Source of the DNA: Promethearchaeota archaeon
GTDB taxonomy: Archaea > Asgardarchaeota > Lokiarchaeia > Sigyniarchaeales > SOKP01
Assembly (NCBI GenBank): GCA_016839555.1
Contig: JAEOUA010000012.1
Location: forward strand, 186,001-250,000
Direction of reading: 5' to 3'
DNA: 64,000 nucleotides
Below, one piece after another: positions 15,182 to 19,087 of this stretch; the first letter of the stretch is position 1, and each line of letters starts with the position of its first letter. The notes under the pieces are model-generated. The model worked only from the letters and a program-made list of their open reading frames with translations, was not told the origin of the DNA and made no database searches. The position numbers and the translations under genes were made by a program.

Positions 15182-17149
15182 ATGTCTGAAGAAAAACAGA
15201 CCAATGAAGAACCTAAGATATTTGTTGCTGTCTGTCGCTGAGGGATTAATATCTCTGAAATCATTGACTGCGGAGCACTTGCAGAATTTGCGAAAACATT
15301 GCCGAACGTTGTCGCCGCAGATGAGTATATTTCCATGTGTACAGAAGGTGGGGCGGATTTTATTAAAGAAAATATGAATAAATATAATGCAAATAGATTA
15401 ATAGTTGCGGCTTGAACTCCAATAACTCATGAACCGGTTTTCGAAAATGTTTTAAAATCAATTGATATGGATCCATCCTATTTGCAATTTGTTAATATTC
15501 GGGAACATTCTAGCTTTGTTCATAGAAATGATAGAGAGGGAGCACAAAGAGTAGCTGAAGATCAAATTAAAGCAGGAGTAGCTCGAGCGCTATTATTGGA
15601 AACCATATCTATAAAAGAAGTGGATATCCAAAAAACGGTCTTAATTATTGGTGGTGGTGTTGCCGGATTAACCGCTGGAATTGATCTAGCAGAAGAGGGA
15701 TATGATGTGCATTTAGTTGAAAAAACCCCTACCATTGGCGGAAAAATGGCACAACTTGATCGGACATTTCCTACTGATGATTGTTCAATATGAATTTTAG
15801 GACCTGTAATGCTGGAAGCAGCAAGAACAGAAGGACTCAATATTTATACATATAGCGAAATTGAAGACCTTGATGGATTCATTGGAAATTTTAACGTTAA
15901 AATCAGGAAAAAGGCGAGGTATACCACTAATGATTGCAATGGATGTGGAGCATGTGAAGAAATTTGTCCAACAATCGGTCCTAATGAGTTTGATAAAGGA
16001 ATGAGTGCTCGCACTGCTATATATACGGTTTTCAATCAAGCTGTTCCATTAGTTGCTCAAATAGATATGGATAGATGCATACGATGTGGGTTATGTGAAG
16101 AAGTATGCGAAGTCGATGCGATTGATTTCGATCAAGAAGATGAAATTATAGATTTAAAAGTAGGATCAGTTATCGTTGCAACGGGATGGGATGAATATGA
16201 GCCGCCAGAAGGATATCTCGGGTATAATAAATATCCTAATGTAATCACGCAATTACAATTGGAAAGAATATTAAATCCAAATGGTCCTACTGTGAGTCAT
16301 CTTGTACGTCCTTCTGATGGAAAAGTACCAAAGCGGATATTATTTATTCAATGTGTGGGATCACGAGACTTAAATAAAAATACATATTGTAGTTCAGGGG
16401 TATGTTGTATGACAACCATAAAGAATTCAAAACTAATCAAGCAACATGACCCTAATATAGAAATAGAGGTAGCATATATGGACATCCGAGCTGCCGGAAA
16501 GGATTATGAAGAATACTTTACCGCTTCTAGAAAACAAGGAATTAAGTATATTAGAACTAATATAAGTAAAGTTGAAGAGGATCCACAAACCCATAATCTA
16601 AAAGTAATAATGCAGAATACACTACGCGATTCTTTAGGTCTCCAAGAAAAAGAATATGATTTAATTGTCCTCTCATGTGCAATGGTTCCTCCGAAAGGCA
16701 TTGATAAGATAACGAATATGTTAAAATTAGAAACAAGTCAAGATGGTTTCTATAAAGAATTTCATTCACGATTAAATCCTATTGATACCAAAATTCCTGG
16801 AATGGTGTTAGCAGGGGCCAGTCAAGGACCGAAGTCTATTGCGGAGTCCATAGCCCAAGGAAGAGCTGCAGCCTCTTCGTTAGCACGACTCATGAGCAAG
16901 GATAAATATCAAATTAAGCTTATTCGAGCTAAAGTTGATGAAGAACGATGTTCTAATTGTGGATTATGTGAATTAAATTGCGCATATAACGCCATTACTC
17001 TTAATGAGGATGGAGCGGAAGTAAATGAAATTTTATGTAGAGGATGTGGTTCATGTCTATCTAATTGTCCTTCCGAGGCAATCACTCTAAGATATTATCG
17101 AGAACCTCAATATGAAACTCAAATAGATGCTATTTTAGAAGAGATATAG
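15182..17149 (+). CDS. hdrA: Heterodisulfide reductase subunit A, selenoprotein with three predicted Sec residues
   Basis: Read through three in-frame UGA codons (15239-15241, 15413-15415, 15791-15793), this frame gives a full-length 655-residue HdrA. The UGAs fall at residues 20 (VCR-U-GIN), 78 (VAA-U-TPITHEP) and 204 (DDCSI-U-ILGP), each a position where methanogen HdrA has cysteine. An FAD-binding GGGVAG lies near residue 157. Two inserted ferredoxin motifs start near 252 (CNGCGACEEIC) and 298 (CIRCGLCEEVC). YCSSGVCCM lies at about 402-410, and two more cluster motifs follow after 590. HdrA is the flavin-bifurcating core of Hdr complexes, in the cytosol. vhuD follows 14 nt later, so both form one operon and probably share the SECIS candidate after vhuD. 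Ordinary annotation would split this gene at each UGA. Confidence 0.93.
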
Positions 17150-17163
17150 AGGAGATAAATTAA

Positions 17164-17631
17164 ATGGAAAATGGAAATCTAAAAATAATCGCCTTCCTCT
17201 GCCTAAAATGAGGTTATGGAGCTTGTGACATGGCTGGCACCATGCGAGCACAATATCCGGCTTCCATACGCCCTATTAGAATGAATTGTACTGGTAGAGT
17301 GACTCCAAGTTTAATGATGAGAGCTTTGGGTAAAGGAGCAGATGGAATTATTTTAGCAGGTTGATATCCCGGCGAGTGTGATTTTGAAACGGGTAATCTT
17401 GTTGCCAGGAAAAATGTTAACTATGTAAGAGAAATTTTGGCAAGTATAGGGATATCGCCAAAACGAGTCCAAATGTTTTATTGTTCCGCAGCGGAAGGGA
17501 AGAGATTTCAAGAAGAAGTAACCCGAATAACGGAAGATATAGAAAAACTCGGTAAAAATCCCTTTAAGCAAACTGCAACAAATGAAAATTCAAAAGATTC
17601 TAAATCTAAAAGCAAGAAAAATGCCAAATAA
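17164..17631 (+). CDS. vhuD: VhuD/MvhD-type hydrogenase iron-sulfur subunit, selenoprotein with two predicted Sec residues
   Basis: The frame starts at ATG 17164, nine nucleotides after GAGGAG (17149-17154). It is open to 17631 if UGA at 17209-17211 and 17362-17364 is read as Sec. The 155-residue product aligns by eye with MvhD: AFLCLK-U-GYGACDMAGT (Sec16), RPIRMNCTGRVTPS, then GIILAG-U-YPGECDFETGN (Sec67). Family members have Cys at both positions, where they bind a [2Fe-2S] cluster. VhuD/MvhD links the [NiFe] hydrogenase to HdrA. A lysine/serine/asparagine-rich tail of about 20 residues is unusual. The stop codon lies inside the SECIS-like stem-loop. Confidence 0.92.
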
Positions 17632-17690
17632 GAATGACTCTTATAAGTAAATGGTTGTTATAAGATGACAATCCTTGCGTGGATATTTGG
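17624..17690 (+). promoter_or_regulatory. Candidate SECIS element with eukaryote-like core
   Basis: UGAC (17635-17638) and UGAC (17666-17669) face each other directly below a perfect 8-bp helix, TCTTATAA (17639-17646) with TTATAAGA (17658-17665). They form the U-N, G-A, A-G, N-N quartet of the SECIS kink-turn core. The 11-nt apical loop (17647-17657) contains unpaired AAA. Below, CCAAATA (17624-17630) can pair with TATTTGG (17684-17690) across an asymmetric internal loop. It begins inside the last codons of vhuD and is the only such structure I found near hdrA-vhuD, so it may serve all five UGA codons. Published work on Lokiarchaeota describes eukaryote-like SECIS elements. Confidence 0.78.
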
Positions 17691-17770
17691 TTAAAGTTTT
17701 AAGAATTAAGGAAAAGAATTAATATAAAATATATATATTTGAAGTATAAAAAAATAAAAAATCATATAAA

Positions 17771-19087
17771 ATGTTTTTTGGAAAATCTCCTAAAGAAAAA
17801 GCAGAAAACGATTTCAATAAAGCAGAACACCTTTTTGAAGCCCTCCAATATAAAAAAGCGGGAAAATATTATGAATCTGCGGGAGATACTTTTTATGAAA
17901 TAAAAGATTTTAGCTCTGCAGAGTTATCTTTTTTAAATGCAGCGAAGTCCTATATAAAAGAAGAACGACACATTAATGTGTTAAATTCACTAAGAAAAGC
18001 CAGTAATTGTTCTCTTCAATTGAATAATTACGCCTATTCTCAAAAAGTGTTTGAAAAGGCTCTAATATATACTAAAAAATTAAGTAAAGGGAAAGAAAAG
18101 CATAGTTTTTATATTATTTTTTCTGTTTTGTATTACTTATGCGCATTAATAAAAGGAGAACCAGAAAAAGGGGTAAATTTAATAAAAAAAATTCAAAAGA
18201 GAATTAATAAGGATTATTTTAAGGTTCATAGCTTAATCCATTTTATAACCAATTTAACGATTGCGATTAGGGATAAAAATGAATCGTATTTAGAAAAAAT
18301 AATAAATGATTTTAATGAAATAGAATTGAATCAAGTAGAGAGAGAATTAGCCCAGATTGCAATTTTATTAGTTTATATGCAAGTTTCTATATCGCCAGAG
18401 GTGGTACTAGACCAAGAGCAATGGACTATCAAAGATTTAATTGGATTACGCATTAAAGTAGATGAAACTTCCTTTAACTCAATTAAACAAAATTTGTTTT
18501 TTGAATTTCAAATTAAAGAATTTAAGATTTTAAAAGTGTCTATAGGTCATTCTGATAATCTTACAATAAAAAATAAACCTGAATTTCCATTAGATATCTC
18601 ACTTCAAAAAGGGTTTGATATGGATTTTGAATTAAAGCCTCAATTTCAAAAGGATATTTCATTCATAGGCCCTATCAAAATACAATATGAGATTAATGGC
18701 AAATATATAGGATATTTTGAAAATAGAAATGAATTTAATTTAACACTCTTATCCCCTCCCACTCATTTAGATGTCTCTATAAAAAATTTAAAACCACCAC
18801 TCATTGATAAAACTTTTCCGCTTGAAATTCTTATTGAAAATCATAGTGATAGCGAAGCACGTAATTTAGAAATTACCCTAACGCTACCGGAACCTCTCAA
18901 GTTGATGAGAGGCACTCTGGAAAAACAAATCTATTCTCTTGGAACTAATGAAAGTATTAACTGGAAAATCAGTGCAAAACCAATTGAGGCCGGAGATTTT
19001 GAAATTATTGGAGATATAAAATATAGTGACCCGGATCAAAATATTCTTAAGGAGCGAAAAATTTTTCCAATTTCAATTAAAATGTAA
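17771..19087 (+). CDS. TPR-like N-terminus with C-terminal beta-sandwich domains, hypothetical
   Basis: The 438-residue protein begins with helical repeats of TPR/SNAP type (AEHLFEALQYKKAGKYYESA, then DFSSAELSFLNAAKSYI and NNYAYSQKVFEKALIY) across about residues 12-110. The middle is helical. From about residue 220 to the end it is beta-rich, with a final DUF11/CARDB-like unit (ILIENHSDSEARNLEITLTL). No signal peptide or transmembrane segment is present. A cytosolic scaffold is plausible but inferred. It follows the hdrA-vhuD operon by 139 nt and precedes deoA on the same strand, with no clear functional link. Confidence 0.65.
   Translation: MFFGKSPKEKAENDFNKAEHLFEALQYKKAGKYYESAGDTFYEIKDFSSAELSFLNAAKSYIKEERHINVLNSLRKASNCSLQLNNYAYSQKVFEKALIYTKKLSKGKEKHSFYIIFSVLYYLCALIKGEPEKGVNLIKKIQKRINKDYFKVHSLIHFITNLTIAIRDKNESYLEKIINDFNEIELNQVERELAQIAILLVYMQVSISPEVVLDQEQWTIKDLIGLRIKVDETSFNSIKQNLFFEFQIKEFKILKVSIGHSDNLTIKNKPEFPLDISLQKGFDMDFELKPQFQKDISFIGPIKIQYEINGKYIGYFENRNEFNLTLLSPPTHLDVSIKNLKPPLIDKTFPLEILIENHSDSEARNLEITLTLPEPLKLMRGTLEKQIYSLGTNESINWKISAKPIEAGDFEIIGDIKYSDPDQNILKERKIFPISIKM

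Follow-up and report, generated by a model that had tools for sequence, protein, structure and literature searches.

A conserved SECIS element with a third arm ends a UGA-containing hdrA-vhuD gene pair of an Asgard archaeon and very probably serves both genes

Two neighbouring genes, hdrA and vhuD, in a 64,000-nucleotide stretch of a Promethearchaeota archaeon genome (contig JAEOUA010000012.1, positions 186,001 to 250,000; hereafter the window) together hold five in-frame UGA codons, and the question raised by the locus is whether one SECIS element at the far end of the second gene could decode all of them, across the stop codon of the first. The genes are 14 nt apart, and the TAG stop of hdrA overlaps the Shine-Dalgarno-like motif AGAGGAG shortly before vhuD, which is the layout of a co-translated pair and suggests co-transcription. 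A scan with sigma-70-type promoter and terminator models, which are unsuited to archaea, gave counts at shuffle level. Against the NCBIfam HdrA2 model (NF040770), HdrA matched model positions 2-643 with 762 bits, the 1100-bit cut-off applying to the whole fused protein, and VhuD covered positions 647-773; since the two proteins cover adjacent parts of one model, the pair looks like a split HdrA2. On the evidence given below, hdrA and vhuD very likely form one transcription unit, in which the single 3′ SECIS would decode all five UGAs with Sec at each.

Table 1. Coordinates of the hdrA-vhuD genes, their in-frame UGA codons and the parts of the SECIS element in the window.
Feature	Position	Strand	Remarks
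hdrA (HdrA2-like, 655 codons, three in-frame UGA)	15182..17149	+	translation with TGA read through; stop TAG 17147-17149
HdrA residue 20, UGA	15239..15241	+	2396 nt 5′ of the SECIS core UGA
HdrA residue 78, UGA	15413..15415	+	varies among relatives
HdrA residue 204, UGA, DDCSIU motif	15791..15793	+	87 occurrences across sampled loci, all DDCSIU
AGAGGAG, Shine-Dalgarno-like, overlapping the hdrA stop ahead of vhuD	17148..17154	+	read from sequence; putative role
vhuD (MvhD/FlpD domain, 155 codons, two in-frame UGA)	17164..17631	+	stop TAA 17629-17631; Pfam FlpD 154 bits
VhuD residue 16, UGA	17209..17211	+	read from sequence; relatives compared
VhuD residue 67, UGA	17362..17364	+	read from sequence; relatives compared
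Complete SECIS element, three-way junction	17623..17691	+	overlaps the vhuD stop; R1 match 17625-17689, 43.4 bits
P1 lower stem, 5′ strand CCAAAU	17624..17629	+	within the last vhuD codons; partner 17685-17690
Quartet, 5′ side UGAC (non-Watson-Crick)	17635..17638	+	UGA invariant in 52/52 aligned rows
P2 upper helix, 5′ strand UCUUAUAA	17639..17646	+	partner 17658-17665; 8/8 pairs covary
Apical loop GUAAAUGGUUG, 11 nt	17647..17657	+	AAA 17649-17651 invariant in 52/52
P2 upper helix, 3′ strand UUAUAAGA	17658..17665	+	partner 17639-17646; 8/8 pairs covary
Quartet, 3′ side UGAC	17666..17669	+	GAC invariant in 52/52
P3 side hairpin AUCC-UUGCGU-GGAU, third arm	17671..17684	+	loop G 17677 invariant in 52/52
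P1 lower stem, 3′ strand AUUUGG	17685..17690	+	partner 17624-17629

The position of HdrA residue 20 was occupied by UGA in many sampled paired loci and was of Cys type in some. The richest pair (L326) carried seven UGAs, five of them in hdrA and the other two in vhuD. In the hdrA genes of three genomes (L321, L322 and L326, of G093, G097 and G132, respectively) a UGA fell at the alignment column of Cys 302 or Cys 305 of the window's HdrA, within a CxxCxxC iron-sulphur motif, where Sec might possibly act as a cluster ligand. The window's own genome contained three more UGA-type hdrA-vhuD pairs, on contigs C7, C10 and C12 (L090, L091, L092), with a terminal element each; Cys-type copies, which are without element, lie beside UGA-type pairs.

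The genome is predicted to decode Sec, as it contains a tRNASec, a SecS, an EFSec candidate and a selenoprotein gene. The tRNASec has a UCA anticodon and scored 45.3 bits, just below the gathering score of 47, and was not reported in the genome by ARAGORN; SepSecS scored 388 bits, and the SelB-like factor, which is the EFSec candidate, 237.4 bits, just below the 242 cut-off. All three are located on one contig (C5) within 10 kb, and the selD gene of the genome itself contains one in-frame TGA. Several genes have in-frame UGA, as would be expected if UGA were reassigned genome-wide or leaky and a SECIS were not needed, and yet UGA terminates 5/48 non-overlapping window ORFs of at least 100 amino acids outside the hdrA-vhuD operon, on which ground global reassignment was rejected. 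Moreover, the in-frame UGAs occupy Cys-type positions, and a covarying element comes after them; Cys-type paralogs are without one. This alternative therefore has next to no probability in our judgement.

The initial annotation had described, overlapping the vhuD stop, a stem-loop with a UGAN/NGAN quartet, an 8-bp helix and an A-rich apical loop, the lower stem of which begins inside coding sequence. These parts were all recovered at the same coordinates: the quartet is UGAC/UGAC, the loop holds an AAA conserved throughout the alignment, and the first strand of the lower stem lies in the last vhuD codons. The 5′ UGA of the quartet lies in the reading frame of vhuD, two codons past the UAA. The designation “eukaryote-like” held for the quartet and the apical adenines, but the two-helix description was incomplete: a third hairpin had been missed, with which the element forms a three-way junction.

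Thermodynamics alone would not single out the element, and comparison is decisive. In isolation, the segment 17624-17690 had a different fold as its minimum free energy structure (−12.4 kcal/mol, z −1.68, 10/200 shuffles as good), and with flanks the folding z was −0.75 (37/200 shuffles as good). The SECIS fold in the window reached −10.8 kcal/mol, i.e. 1.6 kcal/mol weaker than the alternative, and isolated folding was accordingly discarded as uninformative. Of the two checks proposed in the initial annotation for the structure itself, RNA folding spoke for the other fold, and the search for the element succeeded when carried out with a covariance model. This model (R1), built from 13 relatives with the window excluded, matched the element with 43.4 bits (E 3e-9) and gave no other match at E≤1 anywhere in the 64-kb window. 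A second covariance model (R2), which has the window in its training set, gave the window element 61.5 bits in its own genome. No Rfam SECIS-family match was obtained in the whole window at gathering scores, nor in 17000-17900 at E≤5.

For comparison, 227 genomes of the phylum were screened for vhuD; 212 gave a match at E≤1e-20, and 120 vhuD places, UGA-type and Cys-type, were sampled among the matches listed; a scan of named genomes gave mostly bacterial and Cys-type relatives. In a sequence-only alignment of 52 orthologous 3′ regions (50 distinct rows), all eight P2 pairs changed on both sides, while the UGA and GAC of the quartet did not vary, so that the covariation anticipated across Asgard hdrA-vhuD loci was indeed found for the helix. 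In these 52 loci, 95.5% of the P2 cells were paired, in comparison to 36.5-56.8% in slid registers, and the value was reached by 0/500 shuffles. Only P2 was counted on this alignment (A1), because the registers of P1 and P3 shift between subfamilies in the MAFFT alignments (A1, A3, A4). L071 was excluded from A1, as its element is of another subfamily: this locus, in G116, has a vhuD of the window type, and the element after it resembles by eye the subfamily of the second paralog, possibly a SECIS swap between paralogous operons. In a model-fitted alignment of 49 matches, both-side changes were seen in 5/5 pairs of P1, 8/8 of P2 and 6/6 of P3; this alignment is biased in favour of the structure, and two of its matches are dubious (L133 on the minus strand and L069 1957). 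P1 reads CCGAA/UUCGG in most relatives and CCAAAU/AUUUGG in the window, a compensatory change. We regard it as confirmed that this is a genuine and conserved element, which belongs to the Asgard eSECIS-like kind and has one arm more.

The number of elements per operon was addressed in 99 tight hdrA-vhuD pairs with UGA in both genes. With the strict parser, to which the tight-pair counts refer, an element with a score of at least 34 followed vhuD in 80/99 pairs, in comparison to 1/99 shuffled tails. The covariance models added 11 pairs, seven by R1 (L039, L057, L115, L123, L137, L138, L146) and four by R2 (L120, L121, L127, L130). Neither automatic method found an element in the remaining 8/99 (L071, L099, L117, L132, L134, L135, L139, L145), of which several do show one by eye and with a one-mismatch parser. 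A looser-looking parser produced fewer elements because stronger helices were demanded, 71/99 at score 40 with 0/297 in shuffles. At 16 loci with Cys-type vhuD none matched R2 at E≤0.1 and none reached parser score 30 (the best being 23.9 and 26.8).

Upstream of these terminal elements, the interiors (leader, hdrA, gap and most of vhuD) contained nothing above score 40 in 94/99 tight pairs, with shuffles peaking at 37.1. No second conserved SECIS inside hdrA, the observation named beforehand as adverse to sharing, was thus detectable in these pairs, and the earlier remark that neither the 14-nt gap nor the hdrA leader holds a comparable structure agrees with the finding of no second element in the window by R1. 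At the lower score of 34, positive interiors numbered 12/99 vs 8/99 in shuffles, which leaves room for a weak or different internal signal.

The five interiors that exceeded score 40 (L124, L140, L143, L148, L149) had gaps of 132-144 nt, each with a complete element for hdrA. Together with G161, in which hdrA and vhuD are 707 nt apart and carry an element each (R1 33.6 and 27.8 bits; R2 44.6 and 47.5 bits), two elements were found at six wide-gap loci. A second SECIS between the genes in some other lineages means that sharing is not universal, and the separate hdrA SECIS of the five wide-gap pairs and of G161 shows that distal action is dispensed with at some loci.

Stand-alone genes were obtained by a DDCSIU pattern search, which had matches in 101/227 genomes and from which 20 further places were sampled among the matches listed. 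Seven were stand-alone hdrA, seven were paired, three had no hdrA match (L312, L313, L331) and two were at a contig edge (L323, L330). One place (L324, G122:C1:3249155-3252855), a UGA-containing hdrA within a 1185-codon open frame extending beyond the HdrA match, was left out of the count. An element was present in 7/7 stand-alone UGA-containing hdrA genes, with the core 4-70 nt past the hdrA stop and scores of 46.2-51.6 (parser with one mismatch per helix), when none of 140 shuffles scored above 34.4. Stand-alone was defined by no vhuD match downstream, within 1.5 kb in six and within the 0.44 kb to the contig end in L317. The seven cases are not independent, as the upper helices of L317-L319 are nearly identical and these three genes are likely to be orthologous. 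R2 also matched the element at three of them (L314, L315, L320), and gave a weak match of 23.3 bits away from the expected place at L316 (3125-3190). In the seven further pairs from the same search the element was at the vhuD end in 7/7. Finally, in two relatives (L130, L146) the halves were truly fused into one ORF uninterrupted by a stop, with UGAs in both halves and one element after the fusion. The SECIS, in summary, follows whichever UGA-containing gene comes last, and most tight pairs, the window's included, show one, after vhuD.

These arrangements bear on the main rival explanation, according to which the 3′ element serves vhuD only and hdrA has its own unrecognised signal in the leader, coding region or context. 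The hdrA genes with their own SECIS (five wide-gap pairs, G161 and seven stand-alone genes) are in line with it, and so is a 22.8-bit R2 match inside the hdrA of G118 (L079 1957-2027), though the training set of R2 included a dubious match at the corresponding position of L069, to which R1 had given 14.5 bits (E 0.69). However, an hdrA-own SECIS, when present, is of the same recognisable type just past the stop, and for this the 14-nt gap of the window is too small; the leader, hdrA and gap of the other 94/99 pairs had nothing clearly above background. Furthermore, at least one hdrA UGA was present in all sampled UGA-type vhuD pairs that covered hdrA. We consider the vhuD-only explanation improbable. 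The proposal made in the initial annotation, that one 3′ element may decode UGA codons up to about 2.4 kb upstream across a stop, in turn gained support from the stand-alone, wide-gap and fused comparisons.

A further possibility concerns origin: a gene for HdrA2 may have been cut in two, with the SECIS inherited from a one-ORF ancestor and hdrA perhaps now made inefficiently. The mechanism would be the same as with a shared element, and only the history would differ. The adjacent coverage of one HdrA2 model (HdrA 2-643, VhuD 647-773) and the two relatives with a fused ORF, UGAs in both halves and one SECIS fit this history, although fusion could be secondary and there are also stand-alone hdrA genes that carry a SECIS themselves. 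We rate the split as possible and rather doubtful.

In the shared-element reading, the 3′ end of the transcript would fold to a three-way junction of P1, P2 with the tandem G.A (kink-turn) quartet and A-containing loop, and P3. A putative SECIS-binding factor, perhaps of the L7Ae/L30 type, would then bring EFSec and Sec-tRNASec to any upstream ribosome on the mRNA, including those on hdrA, even though the UAG of this gene precedes the element by about 470 nt. A stop in between would be irrelevant because a SECIS acts through space. Translation of vhuD would terminate beside or inside the element, and the arriving ribosome would probably melt it.

Stop codons of the operon were compared with this mechanism. 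In 97 unfused pairs hdrA ended in TAG (50) or TAA (47) and never in TGA, when 9/189 background ORFs of at least 150 amino acids had a TGA stop (binomial 0.009, Fisher 0.03, calculated on related sequences that are not independent). The bias supports sharing weakly. It may have its cause in the vhuD Shine-Dalgarno, with which the hdrA stop overlaps; TAG is over-represented there. At 16 unfused loci vhuD itself ended in UGA; among the 14 that were assessed, the stop was the core UGA at 11 and was 4 nt before the core at three, which fits a signal that recodes upstream UGAs but not the overlapped one.

The distance from the first hdrA UGA to the core UGA had a median of 2394 and a maximum of 2408 nt in 73 single-element pairs placed by the parser. 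For archaea, a UGA-SECIS distance range of 70-1500 nt has been quoted (PMC9499178), and for some Asgard genomes 30-500 bases were reported (PMC9723677). The distance of 2.4 kb in the window is larger than both and counts against sharing, as does the failure of a lokiarchaeal SECIS in M. maripaludis (PMC11881835), when a reporter study is described as arguing against strict distance limits (PMC9622424).

The third arm was supported by a test that involved no fitting: a perfect hairpin with a score of at least 10 was present after the quartet in 41/45 distinct ortholog segments vs 1098/9000 letter shuffles. The stems in relatives were ACCAU/AUGGU, AUGG/CCAU, CCCCU/AGGGG, GAUCCUC/GAGGAUU and others. 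In the window, P3 contributed 6.0 kcal/mol over the fold with P1 and P2 (−10.8 with and −4.8 kcal/mol without it).

P3 is not special to multi-UGA genes, a notion ruled out by its presence in selD elements: 30 selD loci were sampled, three being too short to parse, and P3 was found in 23/27 parsable loci vs 0/270 shuffles at the same score. Two of the other four (L178, L185), by R1 as run on 8 of the 30 selD loci, carried a 3′ element of the vhuD subfamily, unlike other selD elements, possibly by a SECIS swap. Further R2 matches in the window's own genome were located downstream of two vhuU-like genes and of a prx-like gene (WUHAU), the labels being given by eye. P3 may have a role in Sec insertion, and the conserved arm offers a concrete bait and mutation target towards an archaeal SECIS-binding factor.

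The covariance model finds Asgard selenoprotein genes without protein homology, and it yielded a protein family with two adjacent in-frame UGAs. The member in the window's own genome (G000:C7:6073-6537; L332, and L307 1047-1508) is a small protein of about 155 amino acids with the motif PDxGC-U-U, and R1 matched a SECIS with 36 bits where its gene ends. Comparison of the protein with Pfam (at the cut-off), NCBIfam and PDB gave no match, and a MoaD/ThiS-like ORF ending in GG (label by eye) lies upstream of the gene. The family had a match in 59/227 phylum genomes, all of the window's class, and among the matches listed at least two TGA were present in every row covering the motif; CUU was found in 30/30 sampled loci. 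A terminal element with a score of at least 38 was present in 22/28 loci with enough sequence vs 0/135 shuffles; this score was used because the one-mismatch parser at score 30 did not discriminate (18/135 shuffles). The family, putatively a conserved selenoprotein with two adjacent Sec residues, seems to be new and is outside the seven selenoprotein families named by Huang et al. (2024, PMC11227280).

Joining these observations, we tentatively suggest, with somewhat less than even confidence, that SECIS elements of the window's Asgard class are three-way junctions, the P3 of which, with its conserved loop G, would be an undescribed recognition element for a factor replacing SBP2; that one element may serve a unit of several genes, with as many as seven UGAs spread over two genes and a reach of about 2.4 kb upstream; and that the same signal marks an unrecorded family with two adjacent Sec. 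No SBP2 is reported for Asgard genomes or for archaea (Huang et al. 2024, PMC11227280). If Asgard elements had the side arm, eukaryotes lost it, which bears on the origin of the eukaryotic SECIS. The series of shared, separate, stand-alone and fused arrangements makes the reach of the SECIS and its barriers directly testable in one reporter.

The headline of SECIS sharing is known: according to Huang et al. (2024, PMC11227280), Asgard hdrA and frhD (here vhuD) are adjacent in every case and nearly all of them have an eSECIS-like structure in common, for which the AUGA_GA core is typical. Huang et al. place their Asgard eSECIS-like type I in the same genes and the same position, with the same core, an upper stem of 7-15 bp and a loop of 8-20 nt, and the window element agrees with it in the following features. 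The core 5′-GA_[G/A]A is represented by UGAC/UGAC at 17635 and 17666, the upper stem (with up to 2 mismatches in type I) has 8 bp and zero mismatches, and the apical loop, without ministem, has 11 nt. The position, for which type I extends from −30 to +600 nt of the gene 3′ end, overlaps the vhuD stop, and the energy, below −5 kcal/mol in type I, is −10.8 kcal/mol with P3 (−4.8 without).

The published model, as worded, consists of core, upper stem, apical loop, internal loop and lower stem, to which the window element adds the covarying third arm; a side hairpin is absent from the text of that model (PMC11227280) and from that of a 2026 review. The conserved arm seems new, and we claim no priority for it, as the comparison stops short of Mariotti et al. 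(2016, MBE 33:2441); this study, by the account of citing papers, described a eukaryote-like quartet in Loki selenoprotein genes, which the window element has in common with those Lokiarchaeota SECIS. Unlike in the account of Huang et al., pairs with separate elements are here told apart from sharing pairs. This distinction of shared and separate arrangements, the weak stop-codon bias, the homology-free finding of families and the UGA-UGA family also seem new.

With eukaryotic SECIS, as generally described, the window element shares the AUGA...NGAN tandem G.A quartet, unpaired apical adenines, 3′ location and, in the reading proposed here, kilobase reach; it differs in its third arm P3 and in having no Rfam SECIS match. 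Euryarchaeal (methanogen) SECIS are likewise archaeal and 3′-located, and have a GAA_A kink-turn-like motif, unlike the window element, the two being set apart by description and not by sequence; for methanogen hdrA/frhD elements an [A/G]UGA_[G/A]A motif is reported (Huang et al. 2024, PMC11227280). In comparison to HdrA2 (NF040770), finally, HdrA and VhuD together span the model, here as two ORFs with UGA at five positions.
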